Below, piece after piece: positions 10,532 through 59,768 of a stretch of DNA of 64,000 nucleotides. Source of the stretch: Dehalococcoidia bacterium (GTDB lineage: Bacteria; Chloroflexota; Dehalococcoidia; Lucifugimonadales; UBA3495); NCBI GenBank assembly GCA_022827095.1, contig JAJDTP010000009.1, positions 62,001-126,000 of the forward strand, written 5' to 3'. Every line of letters starts with the position of its first letter. Position 1 is the stretch's first letter. The position numbers and the translations under genes are program-made. Under the pieces are notes generated by a model. It was not told the origin of the DNA. It ran no database searches and saw only the letters and a program-made list of their open reading frames with translations.

Positions 10532-10692
10532 ATGCGTACCCACTTTCGCAAATCGTCAGAAGCAGGATTTGCCGGATTTTATGATTGGGCAGGATTGGGA
10601 TATCTCCATCACATAACGGTTCCAATCCTGAAAATCCGATAATCTTGAAAATCCTGCTTCTGACGTTTCCCCGCCGCAAACTGGGTACGCAT
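10532..10692. repeat. family A element, full length, with outer inverted arms
   Basis: Core arms GTCAGAAGCAGGATTTGCCG (10555 on) and AATCCTGCTTCTGAC (ending 10665) surround a GGATT/AATCC-rich centre. Outside the core, ATGCGTACCCACTTT on the left and AAACTGGGTACGCAT on the right form a second inverted repeat. This is the best-preserved copy, about 160 bp, and it defines the family. It lies between an acidic hypothetical gene and gcvT. Confidence 0.85.
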
Positions 10693-12794: not shown

Positions 12795-12932
12795 CGTCAG
12801 AAGCAGGATTTTCGGGATTACGGGATTGTCAGGATTGAGACCATTTGGAGGCAGAGCGCTCCTAATCCTGATAATCCACAAATCCGGCAAATCCAGCTTC
12901 TGACGTTCCCCCGCCGCAAACCGGGTATGCGT
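12795..12932. repeat. family A element
   Basis: Starts CGTCAGAAGCAGGATTTTCG and ends AATCCAGCTTCTGAC. The right outer arm CGCAAACCGGGTATGCG is present and the left outer arm is not evident, so this is a one-sided copy. Confidence 0.8.
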
Positions 12933-25545: not shown

Positions 25546-25554
25546 GTGCGCTCA

Positions 25555-26547
25555 ATGAAAGTTGATATCAGGGTGCCCGTCGGTTTGCCGGTCCAGGAGA
25601 CCGCCGATTTCATCGCCGAATGCGAGGCCGCGGGATTTTCCGGCGTTGGCGTCCACGACCACCAGCACAGCGGGCGGGACGTCTTTCTCGCCCTGGCCCT
25701 GGCCGCCGAGCGGACCTCGCGGCTCACCCTGTACCCCGCCACTTCCAACCCGGTCACCCGGCATCCCATGGTGCTGGCCTCCCTGGCCCACTCGCTGGAA
25801 GAGATTGCGCCGGAACGGGTGCGGCTGACGGTGGCCCCGGGTTACCTCGCGGTGCGCAATATCGGCCGGCCCCGGGCCACGGTGGACACCATGCGTCGAG
25901 CCGTCCTGACCATGCGCCGACTGCTGCGCGGTGAGCGTGTCGAGTTCAATGGCGTCGAAACCCGGCTCCGCAATATCAGCGATCCGCCCACGCCGGTTTT
26001 CATGACCGCCGCCGGTCCGCGGATGGTTGAGTTGGCCGGCGAGGTCGCCGACGGCGCCCTGCTGCTGGTCGGCCTGCATCCCAAGGCGGTCGCTTCCGCC
26101 CGTCGCCGGCTGGAGATTGGCGCGGCGCGGGCGGGCCGCAGCCTCGACGATTTCCAGACGATCTTCATCACCCCAACGACTGTATCGGATGACGGCCCGG
26201 CCGCCCGGCGCTTTCCCCAACAGTGGTTCCGGCCCGACCAGCCGTACCTGAAATACCCCAGCGATTCCAACCTTGTCTGGCTGCGAGAGGCCGGCATCGA
26301 CCTGGCCGACGACTTTGTCCCGGAGAACATCAGCGACGCCCAGGCAGCCGAAATATGCGACGCCTTCGGTCTGTTCGGCACGCCCCAGGAATGCCTGGAC
26401 AGGCTGAAACGCGCCCAGCATGAGTCGGGCATCGACCACGTCTTCATCTTTCCCACCCACACCCAGGAGGGCGGCTACGACATGCCGCGGGCCGAGGTGG
26501 ACGCCTTCCGAGAGACGATAATTCCAGGTCTGGGCGCAGTGTCGTAG
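25555..26547 (+). CDS. luciferase-like (LLM) flavin-dependent oxidoreductase
   Basis: A 330-residue TIM-barrel oxidoreductase of the bacterial luciferase superfamily, close in pattern to F420-dependent methylenetetrahydromethanopterin-reductase-like proteins: DIRVPVGLPVQETADFIAEC, FSGVGVHDHQHSGRDVFLAL, RLTLYPATSNPVTRHPMVLA near 61-80, PVFMTAAGPRMVELAGEVAD, and FGTPQECLDRLKRA near the C-terminus. The cofactor (FMN or F420) cannot be decided from sequence. Start chosen at ATG 25555; a GTG three codons earlier directly follows the previous stop. Confidence 0.85.
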   Translation: MKVDIRVPVGLPVQETADFIAECEAAGFSGVGVHDHQHSGRDVFLALALAAERTSRLTLYPATSNPVTRHPMVLASLAHSLEEIAPERVRLTVAPGYLAVRNIGRPRATVDTMRRAVLTMRRLLRGERVEFNGVETRLRNISDPPTPVFMTAAGPRMVELAGEVADGALLLVGLHPKAVASARRRLEIGAARAGRSLDDFQTIFITPTTVSDDGPAARRFPQQWFRPDQPYLKYPSDSNLVWLREAGIDLADDFVPENISDAQAAEICDAFGLFGTPQECLDRLKRAQHESGIDHVFIFPTHTQEGGYDMPRAEVDAFRETIIPGLGAVS

Positions 26548-26553
26548 GGGAAC

Positions 26554-26663
26554 GTCAGAAGCAGGATTTTCAAGATTTGGGGATTATCAGGATTGGAACC
26601 GTTCAGTGATGGAGTTCTCCCAATCCTGTCAAATCATAAAATCCCGTAAATCCTGATTCTGAC
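26554..26663. repeat. family A element
   Basis: GTCAGAAGCAGGATTTTCAA on the left and AAATCCTGATTCTGAC on the right, with a central GGATTATCAGGATTG block. It lies just after the LLM gene stop and before the promoter of the selenoprotein unit. Confidence 0.8.
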
Positions 26664-26698
26664 GATTTACGAAAGTACCCGTGCCGGCGATCGCCGCG

Positions 26699-26727
26699 TT
26701 GACGGCACTATCGGCCGGGATTACACT
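26699..26727 (+). promoter_or_regulatory. sigma70-like promoter of the UGSC two-gene unit
   Basis: TTGACG at 26699-26704, a 17-base spacer and TACACT at 26722-26727. The ATG follows about 45 bases later; no clear ribosome site is seen before it. Confidence 0.5.
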
Positions 26728-26774: not shown

Positions 26775-27806
26775 ATGCTTGCCACCGACGTTTCCGATGC
26801 CATCGAATTGATGTTTGAGACCGGATGGACCGACGGCCTGCCGGTGGTGCCGCCGTCCGAAGACCTGGTCCGCAAGTTCGTGGAGAGTATCGGCCGCGGT
26901 GGCGACGAACTCGTCGCGGAACTGCCGCCCCTGGGCGGAAGGGCCACCGTCGAACGCATCGCGGTTAACGCCGTCATGGCGGGCTGCCGGCCGGAGCACA
27001 TGCCGGTGATCATCACCGCCCTGGAGGCGATGATGGACGAGCGGTTCAACCTGCGGGGCGTGATGTGCTCCACCGGCATCCACACGCCGCTGCTGATCGT
27101 CAACGGCCCCATCGTCAAGGAACTGGACATCAACGGCGGTTACAACTGCTTCGGCTCAGGCTGGCGGGCCAACGCCACCATCGGCCGCGCGGTCAAGCTG
27201 GCCCTGCTCAACCTGGGCGGCGCCATCCCCGGCGAGACCAACAAGGCCACCTTCGGGCACCCCGGCGCCTACACCTACTGCGTCGCCGAGGACGAGGACG
27301 CCAACCCCTGGGAGCCGATGCACGTCGAGCTCGGCTTCGCCCCGACCGACAGCACGGTGTCGGTGTTCCCGGCAGAGGCCCCGCACAACATCATGTACCA
27401 CGCCTCCCACTCGCGGAACTTCCTGACCGTGCTGGCCGATACCATGTGCACCCTGGGCAACGTCCAGATGTACGTCATGGGCGATACTTTCGTGGTCATC
27501 GGCCCCGAGCACGCCAAGTTCCTCCACCGCGACGGGTGGAACAAGCGGGACATCCGCCAGTTCCTCTACGAGCACGCCCGCAAGCCGGTGCGGAAACTCC
27601 GCCAGGGCGGCCCGCCCCAGGGCGACTCCCGACGCGGCCACTTCTGGCCCCGGTACATCGACGCCGATGACGACGACCAGATGGTGCCGGTGGTGCGCGC
27701 CCCGGACCGCATCAACATTTTCGTCGCCGGCGGCGCCGGCGGCCCCCACTCGGCCTACCTGCCCGGCTGGGGCTCCCGCCGGGTCACGCGAAAGATCGAA
27801 CGATAA
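26775..27806 (+). CDS. conserved partner of the UGSC selenoprotein, unknown function
   Basis: A 343-residue soluble protein. Conserved-looking blocks are GWTDGLPVVPPSEDLVRKFV near 17-36, VMAGCRPEHMPVIITALEAM near 67-86, LLIVNGPIVKELDINGGYNC near 106-125, FGSGWRANATIGRAVKLALL near 126-145 and KATFGHPGAYTYCVAEDEDA near 157-176. Cys71, Cys98, Cys125 and Cys169 are candidates for redox or metal chemistry. I recognise the VNGPI..GPGxRANATIGRA pattern from proteins that occur beside, or fused to, UGSC-family (seleno)proteins, but I know no assigned reaction. It ends 22 bases before the selenoprotein start, so the two are almost certainly one transcript. Confidence 0.8.
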   Translation: MLATDVSDAIELMFETGWTDGLPVVPPSEDLVRKFVESIGRGGDELVAELPPLGGRATVERIAVNAVMAGCRPEHMPVIITALEAMMDERFNLRGVMCSTGIHTPLLIVNGPIVKELDINGGYNCFGSGWRANATIGRAVKLALLNLGGAIPGETNKATFGHPGAYTYCVAEDEDANPWEPMHVELGFAPTDSTVSVFPAEAPHNIMYHASHSRNFLTVLADTMCTLGNVQMYVMGDTFVVIGPEHAKFLHRDGWNKRDIRQFLYEHARKPVRKLRQGGPPQGDSRRGHFWPRYIDADDDDQMVPVVRAPDRINIFVAGGAGGPHSAYLPGWGSRRVTRKIER

Positions 27807-27828
27807 TTGCAGGATTGCAGAGGGAACT

Positions 27829-28386
27829 ATGACTGTCACAAATTACCAGGACCGAATGCGGGAACTGGGCTTGGCCCTGCCCATCGACCCGGACGCAGCA
27901 TCCCGCTGGCGGGCCGCGCCCCGGCTGGACACCCTGCACCACAAGGTCGGCGGCTTATTGGGCAACCGCAAGGCCAACGCTGATCTCCTGCTGCGGAACA
28001 TCGGCGAGCGGATGGCCAAAGACCTGGAACTAGGCGACATCATCGCCGTGGACAAGTTCGTCTATTCCCGCCCGGCCACCGATGAGATCATCAGCGATCT
28101 CTCCGACCGGTGCGATTTCGTGGTCACGGCGATTGCTGATTGAGGCTCCTGCACCGCGTGCAGTGTGCACGACGCAATGACCCTGGAGAACCTCGGCATC
28201 CCCACGGTGGTGCTCTGCACCGACCCGTTCCTGAACTCGGCCTTCCGCCACGCCCGCACCTTTGGCCGCCCCGACTTCCACCCCCTCGGCATCCCCCATC
28301 CCCTGGGCGGCCTGACCCCCGACCAAGTCTCGGTCCGCGCCGGTGAGCTGGAACAGGCGGTTATCGACACGCTGACAACCTACTAG
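27829..28386 (+). CDS. UGSC-family selenoprotein, TGA at codon 105 read as selenocysteine
   Basis: The frame from ATG 27829 meets TGA at 28141-28143 and continues without interruption to TAG 28384-28386. The residues after it are GSCTACSVHDAMTLENLG, so the motif is Sec105-Gly-Ser-Cys108, the defining signature of the UGSC family, with a further Cys111. The translated protein is 185 residues: a helical N-terminal part (DRMRELGLALPIDPDAASRW), the DRCDFVVTAIAD strand before Sec and a C-terminal PLGGLTPDQVSVRAGELEQA. The stop-split reading would leave the conserved C-terminal 80 residues without a start. Expression needs SelA/SelB/SelC/SelD elsewhere in the genome. Role unknown; a Sec-Cys pair suggests thiol/redox chemistry with the upstream partner. 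Confidence 0.85.
28144..28175 (+). promoter_or_regulatory. candidate bacterial SECIS hairpin after the Sec codon
   Basis: Right after the TGA the RNA can fold as CTGCAC-cgc-GTGCAG (28149-28163) or as GTGCA-gtg-TGCAC (28158-28170). The second places a G/U-containing loop about 20 bases after the TGA, within the spacing used by SelB. Both are by-eye foldings. Confidence 0.5.
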
Positions 28387-28420: not shown

Positions 28421-29143
28421 ATGGGGTCGCAGGATATTGACGCCAATCCATCGACAAGGTCAAACCTAGAGTCGACCCTACAGGAAGTCGTTATACAGGT
28501 TACCGTCGACCATTTCGAGAATGTCGAGGCTCACAATGCAGAGCCTGGAAAAGTAAAGAGACTATATCCCGAGAGCCTGCGGGCTGTGGCGGCAGCGAAA
28601 TTTATGATCGAGTACCCCGAAGAAAAGGTGGACCCTCAAGCCGAATACTTGGCCCGTTTCTTTGCAGTCTCTCCCCGATACATCAAAGCCGCACGGAGAA
28701 TGCTCACGGGCGATTGCCCAGAGCAAATCATTGCGGAGTTGAAATACGAGACAAAATCCGTCAGAGAATCCGAAATCCACTTCGACGCGTATAAATCTTG
28801 GACGCAGACAGACATCGCAGGCACCCATTATCTGTATGTGATCGTACCGGAGAAGAACCACACTGTGGGAAAAGTTGGCATCACCAACGACCTTCGCAGA
28901 CGGATTGCCGACCTTGACGCGGCGTCCACCCATAATCTTCACTTTGCCGCCAAGTTCCAAACGCGACGCAATGCCAAAGACGTTGAAGACCGGACTCTCC
29001 ACGCATATCGGATTAATCCCAGCGACAGAGAACGGATAATTGATTGGGATGACCAACAGATACTCAAGTGGACCATTTTCGGCGGAGGCAAATGGATCCC
29101 AGTTGCCGCCGGCTTTGACCGGTCGGGCCGTCTGTCGCGGTGA
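28421..29143 (+). CDS. protein with T5orf172/Mug113-type GIY-YIG domain
   Basis: A 240-residue protein. The C-terminal half reads HYLYVIVPEKNHTVGKVGIT then NDLRRRIADLDAASTHNLHF and AKDVEDRTLHAYRI, the pattern of T5orf172/Mug113-like GIY-YIG nuclease domains (the Y-V, K-V-G-I-T-N, R-R and the late Glu in VEDRTLHA). The N-terminal 120 residues include a possible helix-turn-helix (LARFFAVSPRYIKAARRMLT). Its target and role are unknown; such domains occur in phage and stand-alone proteins. A GGAGG-like AGGAGG lies before ATG 28421. GC and codon use look lower than the neighbours, suggesting transfer. Confidence 0.65.
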   Translation: MGSQDIDANPSTRSNLESTLQEVVIQVTVDHFENVEAHNAEPGKVKRLYPESLRAVAAAKFMIEYPEEKVDPQAEYLARFFAVSPRYIKAARRMLTGDCPEQIIAELKYETKSVRESEIHFDAYKSWTQTDIAGTHYLYVIVPEKNHTVGKVGITNDLRRRIADLDAASTHNLHFAAKFQTRRNAKDVEDRTLHAYRINPSDRERIIDWDDQQILKWTIFGGGKWIPVAAGFDRSGRLSR

Positions 29144-29349
29144 GGTAGTGTGACGAAAACCATCGTGCGTACCGTAACTCGGTGTCCATCCGCACACGCC
29201 CGGTTGATACCAGAGGCAATTACTCGCCGTCCGATTGTGAGTGTATCGCAGCCGTCCACGGGATCTACCTATTCAACTTTGTAACAGACCCTAGAGCGAC
29301 CAACCAGCTGCTCCCCGGGATCACCGGGCGCGATCAAGGAGGCTACGAC

Positions 29350-30249
29350 ATGACCACCGTCGGCAATGGCAAGTACACCTACGAGCAGGTCGAGAACTGG
29401 GAGAAGCTGCCCGATGGATGGCAGCTGGGGCAGACGGCCATCGTCACCGACTCCGAGAACCGAGTGTATCTCTTCAACCGCGGCGAACACCCGTTGATCG
29501 TCCTTGACCGTGACGGCAACTATCTCGCCTCCTGGGGTGAGGGCGTGCTCACCGATGCCCACGGCATGTTCATCGACGACGACCAGAACCTCTACCTGCC
29601 GGTCAAGAACAGCCACGTCGTCCTAAAGTACGACCCCAAGGGCAACCTGCTGATGACCATGGGCGAGTGGAACCAGCCCTCGGACACCGGCTGGTCGGGG
29701 AATTACAGCGACCCGGTGGTCCGGGCGGCCGGGCCGTTCAACAGCCCCAGCGACATCGCCATTTCTCCCGACGGCCTTCTGTACATCTCCGACGGCTACG
29801 GCAACGCCCGGGTGCATCGGTTCACCGCCGACGGCGAGCACGTGGACTCCTGGGGCGCGCCGGGGAAGACCGCTCCCGGCGAGTTCCACGTCCCCCACGG
29901 GGTCTGGGTGCACACCGACGGGCGGGTGTTCGTGGCCGACCGCGAGAACAACCGGATGCAGATCTTCGACTCCGAGGGCAACTTCCTGGAGCAGTGGACG
30001 GACCTGGCTCGACCCTGCGACATCTACATCGACGACGATCTGGCGGTGTACGTGCCGGAACTGGACGGGTTCATGTCCATCCTGGACATCAACGGCAACG
30101 TCCTGGCCCGCTGGGGCAGTCCTTCGGACGCAGGGTGGGGCAACGGTGCTCACGCCGTGTGGGTCGACTCCCACGGCGACATCTACGTCAACCAGAACCT
30201 CGAAGGCCAGCGGCTGATCAAGTACCGCCACGTCGGTGTGACAGGGTGA
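29350..30249 (+). CDS. NHL-repeat beta-propeller protein (peptidyl-hydroxyglycine-lyase-like)
   Basis: A 299-residue propeller with several NHL blades, e.g. LGQTAIVTDSENRVYLFNRG, GNYLASWGEGVLTDAHGMFI, FNSPSDIAISPDGLLYISDG, FHVPHGVWVHTDGRVFVADR and NGAHAVWVDSHGDIYVNQNL. These blades resemble peptidyl-alpha-hydroxyglycine alpha-amidating lyase, though many relatives of this kind are simply of unknown function. No signal peptide from ATG 29350, which has AAGGAGG just upstream (an earlier in-frame start would add 56 unlikely residues). It is 4 bases before an LLM oxidoreductase gene, so coupled. Confidence 0.75.
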   Translation: MTTVGNGKYTYEQVENWEKLPDGWQLGQTAIVTDSENRVYLFNRGEHPLIVLDRDGNYLASWGEGVLTDAHGMFIDDDQNLYLPVKNSHVVLKYDPKGNLLMTMGEWNQPSDTGWSGNYSDPVVRAAGPFNSPSDIAISPDGLLYISDGYGNARVHRFTADGEHVDSWGAPGKTAPGEFHVPHGVWVHTDGRVFVADRENNRMQIFDSEGNFLEQWTDLARPCDIYIDDDLAVYVPELDGFMSILDINGNVLARWGSPSDAGWGNGAHAVWVDSHGDIYVNQNLEGQRLIKYRHVGVTG

Positions 30250-30253
30250 GGCT

Positions 30254-31264
30254 ATGCGCGTCGGTTATCAGGTCGGGCATGTGGTGCAGCGGGACAGCAT
30301 CGACCATCAGCAACAGTGGCAGAACCACCTGGAGCAGTTCCGTGCCTCCCGCGACGCCGGGTTCGACATCTACTGCTGGGGCCACCACTACCTGATCGAC
30401 CCTTTCCAGCACTTCCAGCCCTGGCCGGTGCTGGCGCGCCTGGCCGCCGAGCCGGGAGACATGCAACTGGCCACCTCGGTGCTGTTGCTGCCGTTGCTGA
30501 ACCCGGTGGACGTTGCCGAGCAGGCGGCGACCCTGGATCACATCGCCGAAGGTCGCTTCACCCTGGGTATCGGGCTGGGCTACCGACCGGAGGAGTTTGA
30601 GGCCTTCGGAACGAAGATGTCCGAGCGCGGCGCCCGCTGCACCGAAGCTCTCGGCCTGATGCGCCGGCTGTGGACCGACGACGAGGTGACGCACCACGGC
30701 CGCTACTACAACGTGACCGGAGCGCGGCCCACCGCCCGGCCCTACCAGCAGCCCCATCCCAAGATCTGGCAGGCCGCGATGAGCGATCCGGCGGTGCGCC
30801 GGGTCGGCCGGAGCGGCGACATCCTCTACGTCGGACCCGCACAGTCCAACGCCACCATCCGGCGCCAGATATCGCTCTACCATCACACCCTGGAGGAGAA
30901 CGGCCACGACGTGCCGGAGGACATGGTCATCGTGCGCGAGTTCTTCTGCGCTGCAACCCGCGAAGCGCTGGATCGTGCCAGGGTCAACTTGGCGCGGAAG
31001 TACGAAGTTTACGCCCAGCACGGTCTCCACGGCGCCGACGACGAGCTGACCCGCAAGGTGACCGGCGACCTGGAAACGCTGATGGACGACACCTTCCTGG
31101 TGGGCAGCCCCGAGCAGTGCGTCGAGCAGATCGCCGCCTACCACGAGATGGGGTTCACCGACGTGGCGATCCGGTTGTTCTACCCGGAAATGTCCCAGGC
31201 CGAGGTGATGGAGCATATCGACCTGGTGGGCCGCGAGGTCATACCGGCGTTGCACGCCCTGTAG
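30254..31264 (+). CDS. luciferase-like (LLM) flavin-dependent oxidoreductase
   Basis: A 336-residue luciferase-superfamily monooxygenase-type protein. Motifs: MQLATSVLLLPLLNPVDVAE near 73-92, RFTLGIGLGYRPEEFEAFG near 104-122, LMRRLWTDDEVTHHGRYYNV near 135-154, FLVGSPEQCVEQIAAYHEMG near 282-301 and a C-terminal IDLVGREVIPALHAL. It lies 4 bases after the NHL gene and probably acts in the same pathway. Cofactor and substrate unknown. The remnant at 12688-12780 resembles its C-terminus. Confidence 0.9.
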   Translation: MRVGYQVGHVVQRDSIDHQQQWQNHLEQFRASRDAGFDIYCWGHHYLIDPFQHFQPWPVLARLAAEPGDMQLATSVLLLPLLNPVDVAEQAATLDHIAEGRFTLGIGLGYRPEEFEAFGTKMSERGARCTEALGLMRRLWTDDEVTHHGRYYNVTGARPTARPYQQPHPKIWQAAMSDPAVRRVGRSGDILYVGPAQSNATIRRQISLYHHTLEENGHDVPEDMVIVREFFCAATREALDRARVNLARKYEVYAQHGLHGADDELTRKVTGDLETLMDDTFLVGSPEQCVEQIAAYHEMGFTDVAIRLFYPEMSQAEVMEHIDLVGREVIPALHAL

Positions 31265-36080: not shown

Positions 36081-36216
36081 CGTCAGAATCAGGATTTACG
36101 GGATTTTGTGATTGGCAGGATTGGGTGATCGCCATCGCAGAACGGTTCCCATGCTGATAATCCCTGAATCTTGAAAATTCTGATTCTGACGCTGCCCCCC
36201 GCAACCTGGGCATGCG
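36081..36216. repeat. family A element
   Basis: CGTCAGAATCAGGATTTACG on the left and AAATTCTGATTCTGAC on the right, then the right outer arm CGCAACCTGGGCATGCG. The left outer arm is absent. It fills the gap between amidohydrolase and MFS genes. Confidence 0.8.
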
Positions 36217-42440: not shown

Positions 42441-42749
42441 TCACGCATACCCAGTTTGCCGCCAGGGAACGTCAGAGTCAGGATTTACGGGATTTTATGA
42501 TTGGGCAGGATTGGGAAAGCTCCGTCGCAGAACGGTTCCAATCCTGTAGGACTTGCGCAGTTTAGTGCCTCTACTTCCGTCATTCCGGCGAAAGCAGAAA
42601 TCCAATGGCCGAAATCGTTAAGCATCAGAACGACGCTTTCACACTACGACTCCTGGACTCCGGCTTTCGCCGGAGTGACGGGTGTGGGATTTCAAGTGCG
42701 TAACTCCAATACTGAAAATCCCAAAATCCGGTAAATCCTGATTCTGACA
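42441..42749. repeat. family A element interrupted by a nested family C element
   Basis: The left half begins with the outer arm ACGCATACCCAGTTTGCC (42443 on) and GTCAGAGTCAGGATTTACGG (42471 on). The right half is AAATCCTGATTCTGAC ending 42747. Between them, 42547-42705, lies a family C element with imperfect ends TAGGACTTGCGCAGTTTAG and CAAGTGCGTAACT and the core ATTCCGGCGAAAGC. Near-identical CCAATCCTG (42538-42546) and CCAATACTG (42706-42714) flank it. No gene in the gap 42438-42749. Confidence 0.8.
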
Positions 42750-50669: not shown

Positions 50670-50691
50670 TGCCCCGCGCATTCTTCAGAAG

Positions 50692-50774
50692 CAGGATTTA
50701 CCGGATTTCAAGATTTTCAGGATTACGTCCGCAAATCCCGTCAATCCGGTAATCTTGAAAATCCTGCTTCTGAC
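50692..50774. repeat. family A element between two CaiB/BaiF genes
   Basis: TTCAGAAGCAGGATTTACCG on the left and AAATCCTGCTTCTGAC on the right. Short copy without recognisable outer arms. Confidence 0.8.
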
Positions 50775-50783
50775 GAAATTCCC

Positions 50784-55282: not shown

Positions 55283-55392
55283 TCATCAGAATCAGGATTT
55301 TCGGGATATGGGGATTTACCGGATTGAAACCATTTGCGGCAAGACGTTCCCAATCCTGATAATCTTCAAATCCGGCAAATCCTGATTCCAAC
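55283..55392. repeat. family A element
   Basis: ATCAGAATCAGGATTTTCGG left, AAATCCTGATTCCAACG right; the right end is degenerate (CCAACG instead of CTGACG). The left outer arm AACCCGGTATTA is present. Confidence 0.75.
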
Positions 55393-55419
55393 GATTTTCA
55401 CCAGCGAGGTAATTTACCC

Positions 55420-56781: not shown

Positions 56782-56890
56782 AGTCAGAAGCAGGATTTCC
56801 CGGATTTGAGGATTATCAAGATTGAGTAGATGGCGCTGAGTATCACCGCAATCCTGAAAATCCGATAATCCCGTGAATCCTGCTTCTGAC
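56782..56890. repeat. family A element
   Basis: GTCAGAAGCAGGATTTCCCG left, GAATCCTGCTTCTGAC right, GGATTATCAAGATTG centre. No outer arms recognised. It lies between the MmgE/PrpD gene and the hydantoinase-like gene. Confidence 0.8.
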
Positions 56891-57017
56891 GAATTCCGCG
56901 GCAGCCCAACCGCGGCCACATGTTTCTGTTCATCCCGCGCTATAATCGCGCCCAATCGGGCGAAGTGCGTAAAGTGCTGCCGCTAATGTCCGAAACACGC
57001 ACGTCGGGGAGGGAATC

Positions 57018-59683: not shown

Positions 59684-59768
59684 GTTTGCGGTTGGGAACC
59701 GTTCCGCGACGGAGGCTCCTCAATCCTGCTAAATCATAAAATCCCGTAAATCCTGATTCTGACGATTC
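59681..59768. repeat. truncated family A element inserted in the hicBA locus
   Basis: In plus orientation GGTTCCGCGACGGAGGCTCC (A-family central part) is followed by AAATCCTGATTCTGACG ending near 59765. The outer-arm motif AACCCAGTTTGCGG is at 59680-59693. Only one core arm is present. Confidence 0.75.

Follow-up and report, generated by a model that had tools for sequence, protein, structure and literature searches.

The locus examined here places the gene of a 343-residue protein directly before that of a short selenoprotein with a U-G-S-C motif, and raises the question of whether the two genes make one enzyme and, if so, what that enzyme does. Its features are collected in Table 1, numbered along the whole 64,000-nucleotide stretch of Dehalococcoidia DNA that was analysed (the window). 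As the first-pass annotation had pointed out, the open reading frame coordinates leave 22 bases between the TAA of the first gene, which we call the partner, and the ATG of the selenoprotein gene, and both genes follow one candidate promoter. A consensus scan finds one match to TTGACG-17-TACACT where 0.5 are expected, which by itself carries little weight. In two related species, however, TTGAC and TTACACTCGC are the same as in the window, although the DNA on either side has diverged.

Table 1. Features of the two-gene locus and its surroundings (window positions unless a locus is named)
Feature	Position	Strand	Basis or remark
Upstream neighbour, LLM-class flavin/F420 oxidoreductase	25546..26547	+	PF00296; context only
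Candidate sigma-70 type promoter TTGACG-17-TACACT	26699..26727	+	Consensus scan; boxes kept in two related species
Partner gene, 343 aa	26775..27806	+	ORF, ATG to TAA
Cys71 codon of partner	26985..26987	+	Cys in 79/80 relatives
Cys169 codon of partner	27279..27281	+	Cys in 69/80 relatives
UGSC-family selenoprotein gene, 185 aa, Sec105 in IADUGSCTACSVHD	27829..28386	+	ATG to TAG (28384-28386)
In-frame TGA read as Sec (U of UGSC), codon 105	28141..28143	+	TGA in 7/7 own copies; SelB and tRNA-SeC present
SECIS stem-loop, five pairs 28157-28161 with 28167-28171, loop AGTGT	28155..28173	+	Covariation
Downstream neighbour, NHL beta-propeller protein	29182..30249	+	PF01436; context only
Downstream neighbour, second LLM-class oxidoreductase	30254..31264	+	PF00296; context only
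FlK-type ORF	L015:7505-7891		Directly after UGSC in own paralogous pair

The in-frame TGA of the second gene is read as selenocysteine (Sec). Each of the seven UGSC copies in this genome contains exactly one TGA, and the stem immediately 3′ of it covaries across 62 sequences, with 92.7% of cells paired and 32 double-sided changes; the loop-closing pair is GC in 37 sequences and CG in 24. When one strand of the stem was slid along the alignment as a control, pairing reached at most 54%. Single-sequence RNA energy z-scores were unremarkable in most copies, and it is instead the covariation that is decisive for the SECIS element. The genome encodes SelB (355 bits against a cut-off of 242) and a tRNA-SeC with anticodon tca, which ARAGORN settled as the true gene after an initial tRNA-Sec scan had also flagged tRNA-Ser-like genes. 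Differences that separate the window from its nearest relatives cluster at third codon positions on both sides of the TGA, indicating that the half downstream of the TGA is under purifying selection at the protein level.

The selenoprotein belongs to the UGSC family, with which it shares the motif, the length, a Sec encoded by TGA with a SECIS element, and profile scores above cut-off (PF24696, E = 2.6e-45, 155.1 bits against 25; NF041046 UGSC_fam, 129.8 bits against 125). The family was described as ‘UGSC-containing protein’ by Zhang and Gladyshev in 2008 without a function and, with 255 of the GOS selenoproteins, is among the most abundant selenoprotein families of aquatic metagenomes (PMC2398784). 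The available text of that paper presents it as a single protein, judges its fold ‘likely’ Trx-like, and already contains a fusion of UGSC to a conserved domain termed Unknown_1, which is probably the partner family. In their accessible parts, reviews from 2022 and 2026 still assign UGSC no function. The term ‘undescribed’ in the first-pass annotation therefore applies to the partner, which has no family model, and to the function, of which these accessible texts carry no report, but not to the UGSC family or its fusion to Unknown_1.

Partner and UGSC genes are found together almost without exception. The genome of the window holds seven UGSC and seven partner copies, all of them paired (7/7), with the six other partners 31-42% identical to that of the window. 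One of these pairs is a single fused gene of 573 aa broken only by the Sec TGA, and in two others DUF4058 and endonuclease/phosphatase-type genes sit between partner and UGSC and look like insertions. We collected 80 relatives' loci by partner similarity from 84,980 species genomes; in nearly all of them a UGSC gene adjoins the partner, mostly some tens of bases away and in either order (in neighbouring pairs, UGSC first in 57, partner first in 27). In about a dozen of the 80 loci the two genes are fused in frame, the Sec TGA being the sole stop; one of these fusions has the partner first. As these loci were chosen by partner similarity, the paired fraction is best read from a census of 301 Chloroflexota genomes, in which the partner occurs in 32 and UGSC in 32; of the 33 genomes that carry at least one of the two, 31 carry both (Fisher p = 6e-40, uncorrected for phylogeny). 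A UGSC gene lies on the same strand within 1.5 kb of 67 of the 74 Chloroflexota partners (median gap 92 bp), and 23 of the 75 UGSC copies are in frames of fusion size. Where a partner locus had no UGSC neighbour, UGSC was present elsewhere in the genome (8/8 genomes tested). Conserved adjacency, co-occurrence and fusion, on which the first-pass annotation had staked its two-gene unit, are thus present well beyond what the idea needed to survive.

Two variations on this arrangement were seen. In haloarchaea (L091:5977-8636, L110, L160) one Cys-type UGSC gene is flanked by two partner genes, which suggests a three-subunit version. Four poribacterial loci (L058, L062, L073, L081) have a shorter, stand-alone partner, with UGSC elsewhere in those genomes; that of L081 adjoins CBS-domain and 2-oxoacid:ferredoxin oxidoreductase-type genes.

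None of 80 partner members matches a Pfam or NCBIfam family at a meaningful E-value. The partner carries the motifs DGLPxVPPT, NAVMAGC (which includes C71), NGP and RANATIGRA; in the 80-member alignment DGxP, VPPT, T58, NAVMAGC, NGP and RANATxGRA are invariant or nearly so, as are N146, D156, E172, W179 and GG319-320. Four cysteines (71, 98, 125 and 169) had been singled out as well placed. All are present in the window, and conservation divides them: C71 and C169 are kept in most relatives (Table 1), but C125 in 21/80 and C98 in 2/80. Three loci (L051, L063, L069) encode UGSS variants of the selenoprotein, in which Ser stands in place of the resolving Cys; C71 is retained in the partners at these loci.

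The AF2 model of the partner is confident (pLDDT 94, pTM 0.93), and its top Foldseek match in the PDB is the alpha subunit of fumarase from M. jannaschii (7xky_A, E = 8.8e-5, prob 0.97). This match, along with the conservation of C71 and C169, would fit a lyase or dehydratase in which a fumarase-alpha-like partner works with Sec or Cys at a metal site and nothing is reduced. We consider such an enzyme very unlikely. The superposition on 7xky_A has a TM score of 0.28 and an rmsd of 12.6; a VIA comparison with the PDB puts fumarase at Z 5.3 among many unrelated rows, the best Z being 6.5, below the warning level of the tool; HHalign against class I fumarase alpha (PF05681) gives 0.3%, with no Pfam match in 80 members; and just two partner cysteines are conserved. 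The partner profile has no significant match in the PDB, and since the model yields a weak fumarase match and small common sub-folds only, we claim no fold for it.

A joint fold can be read from a natural fusion. AF2 with 105 relatives models L097:5359-7002 at pLDDT 91.9 and pTM 0.92 over 548 residues, which indicates a well-defined relative placement of the two domains, as a statement of model confidence and not as proof of binding. The conserved pairing, the fusions and this two-domain model bear out the earlier proposal of one redox-type unit with an interface, and the two genes almost certainly encode subunits of one selenoenzyme.

For the UGSC domain the models predict a sandwich of parallel alpha/beta (beta-alpha-beta) type, in which Sec follows the third main strand. 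In structure comparisons it comes closest to Rossmann-like, response-regulator-like and periplasmic-binding-protein-like domains (Z up to 9.6), and the UGSC profile has no match in the PDB. The predicted fold speaks against the Trx-like assignment of 2008, although absence of a fold from a match list excludes nothing. This bears on the possibility that the pair is a general thiol/selenol redox unit, thioredoxin-, peroxiredoxin- or thiol-peroxidase-like, with a dithiol-type UxxC site and the partner as client or scaffold. The UxxC motif, the thioredoxin reductase (TrxR) neighbours described below and the ‘likely’ Trx-like judgement in the available text of PMC2398784 all agree with it. We nevertheless think it unlikely, as the predicted sandwich finds its best matches elsewhere, the closest sequence relatives of UGSC are GrdB proteins, and seven diverged pairs near catabolic genes point to diverse substrates more than to housekeeping.

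The relation to GrdB, the substrate-binding protein B of glycine reductase, is seen at several levels. The model of glycine reductase selenoprotein B (TIGR01917) is matched by 27 of 59 UGSC members (best E = 2.5e-6), and other members match the sarcosine, betaine and proline versions of the selenoprotein B models. HHalign aligns UGSC with GrdB over about 93 columns across the Sec motif (95.7%, E = 8.9e-9, Sec region included); unrelated comparisons with the same profiles gave 0.1-0.3%. Both families have U-G-[ST]-C-T, E..GIPT and HP.G in common. The window protein fails as a full-length GrdB: it has 185 aa, reaches 19.2 bits on TIGR01917 against a cut-off of 602.2, has no PF07355 match and lacks the large N-terminal part of GrdB. 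Nor is the usual second subunit at hand, as GrdE (PF09338) is absent from this genome and found in 8 of the 301 Chloroflexota genomes. Profile comparison likewise rejects the partner as GrdE (0.2%) and as the GrdB N-terminus (0.1-0.3%); a PrdA-type partner is excluded only insofar as PF09338-type GrdE proteins represent PrdA (0.2%). Judged by sequence comparison, UGSC is a free-standing homologue of the Sec domain of GrdB, paired with a second subunit of another kind. As the partner is unrelated to GrdE, the pyruvoyl mechanism is not transferable to the pair.

Other likenesses to GrdB/GrdE and to FarBE go beyond the homologous Sec domain: two subunits, several paralogous pairs per genome, and TrxR/TrxA in some neighbourhoods. 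Gene order and fusions are unlike those of GrdB/GrdE, and aerobes have the UGSC pair, as do haloarchaea, whose forms carry Cys. D-proline reductase PrdB is also a short UxxC selenoprotein, with weak profile matches to 7 of 59 UGSC members (best 0.01), but the short PrdB/GrdB-like proteins of these genomes have a motif of UPxC type, not UGSC. Many such short proteins, bearing UPxC or CPLC, occur here (G000:C35:68451-68861 at L105; L123-L132).

Taken as an enzyme, the pair is probably a widespread one that degrades small organic molecules by reduction. More specifically, we put slightly better than an even chance on a selenoreductase that acts in the manner of glycine reductase protein B, though its second subunit is unrelated. 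In such an enzyme the UGSC subunit would present the Sec nucleophile in the U-G-S-C loop, where a helix of its alpha/beta domain begins, with the 343-residue partner packed against it. The partner would bind and activate the substrate and determine specificity, and a specificity set by the partner would account for seven diverged pairs in one genome. Sec would then attack or reduce a polarised bond in the substrate, a small organic acid or a catabolite of that sort, and a selenenyl-sulfide could form with Cys108, with partner Cys71, or with both. Thioredoxin reductase, with or without thioredoxin, would reset the selenenyl-sulfide.

TrxR-type genes with a CxxCD motif adjoin the pair in Roseovarius, Variovorax SRS16, V. 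boronicumulans, Arthrobacter, Neorhizobium and Haloterrigena; the Arthrobacter order is trxB-trxA-partner-UGSC, with a gene for ComA (phosphosulfolactate synthase) just upstream. These are mainly plasmid-borne or divergent copies of the pair. TrxR stands beside the pair in 6 of the 15 plasmid loci viewed, a small sample of which two lacked a gene table, and among the 80 genome loci near L032 only, at a distance of ~5 kb. With TrxR near 1 of 80 genome loci, most pairs would draw on the general thioredoxin system of the cell.

Other neighbours that recur, by raw counts in which families large in their hosts also figure, encode TTT/TRAP proteins that bind small-carboxylate solutes, CoA transferases of type III, enoyl-CoA hydratases, LLM enzymes and MmgE/PrpD proteins. 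Aconitase X, ComA, FlK-type thioesterase and PEP mutase are single cases, and no one substrate was found that fits all neighbourhoods. A substrate shared with the LLM oxidoreductases, which the first-pass annotation had proposed looking for, has little behind it, with an LLM gene within 6 kb in about 11-12 of the 80 related loci. Its other suggestion, a detoxification complex, likewise gained no specific support, the neighbours looking catabolic.

One form of detoxification would be a metal or organometal complex. Soft metals are bound by Sec and Cys, and a link to metals has been made for other selenoproteins without an assigned role. The recurrent neighbours identified at about 95 loci include no mer or ars gene and none for an efflux ATPase or metal regulator, and the seven paralogues lie near catabolic genes, so that we regard this as highly improbable, the least likely of the readings considered.

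A narrower form of the selenoreductase is a reductive dehalogenase, or an enzyme cleaving C-F, C-S or C-O bonds, acting on a particular pollutant-like or natural small acid. GrdB/GrdE-type proteins serve diverse substrates including fluoroacetate, and FarBE is linked by expression to fluoroacetate reduction (PMC10838667). Domains of FlK type (the fluoroacetyl-CoA thioesterase family) occur near the pair at L015, L041 and L102, and the ComA gene upstream of the Arthrobacter cluster points the same way. The FlK-type domains are present in 3 of about 95 loci and belong to a broad Pfam family, the aconitase X and PEP mutase neighbourhoods indicate other acids, and no halogen- or sulfur-specific gene recurs, which makes this specialised role rather improbable.

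The broader selenoreductase reading extends to the family as a whole. It is possible, though we hold it somewhat short of an even chance, that UGSC and its partner represent a new, widespread class of two-subunit selenoreductases, mostly in aerobic bacteria and with Cys forms in haloarchaea, which would combine a GrdB-type Sec domain with an entirely different activating subunit in place of the pyruvoyl protein, have many substrate-specific paralogues per genome and receive electrons from NADPH via thioredoxin reductase. If so, glycine-reductase-type selenium chemistry would take place in oxygen-living bacteria of ocean and soil, and with Cys in haloarchaea. The near-obligate pairing, the GrdB homology and the TrxR link are not found in the available text of the 2008 paper or of the 2022 and 2026 reviews. 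Seen as one of the two parts of a near-obligate enzyme that has kinship to glycine reductase and, in several organisms, ties to TrxR, the orphan UGSC family becomes a testable hypothesis.

The immediate surroundings of the pair are partly conserved. The NHL gene stays next to it in the sister genomes (L025-L027), where the second LLM-class oxidoreductase gene also stays near, and an NHL match occurs at the paralogous pair L016 of the same genome. A T5orf172/GIY-YIG-like gene at window positions 28421-29143, between the UGSC and NHL genes, is an apparent recent insertion, since the spacing in the sister species L025 (partner 97% identical) is too small to hold it. An Rfam search over the window gave no match. 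A palindromic repeat found between genes, about 95-112 bp long (one copy has 280 bp), resembles a MITE or REP-type element; its end motif, AATCCTG[AC]TTCTGACG, occurs 17 times in the window, where 0.01 matches are expected, and usually forms inverted pairs. The repeats lie at 10554-10665, 12795-12905, 26553-26664, 36081-36191, 42470-42749, 50683-50775, 55284-55393, 56782-56891 and 59749-59764, and one copy sits upstream of the partner gene.
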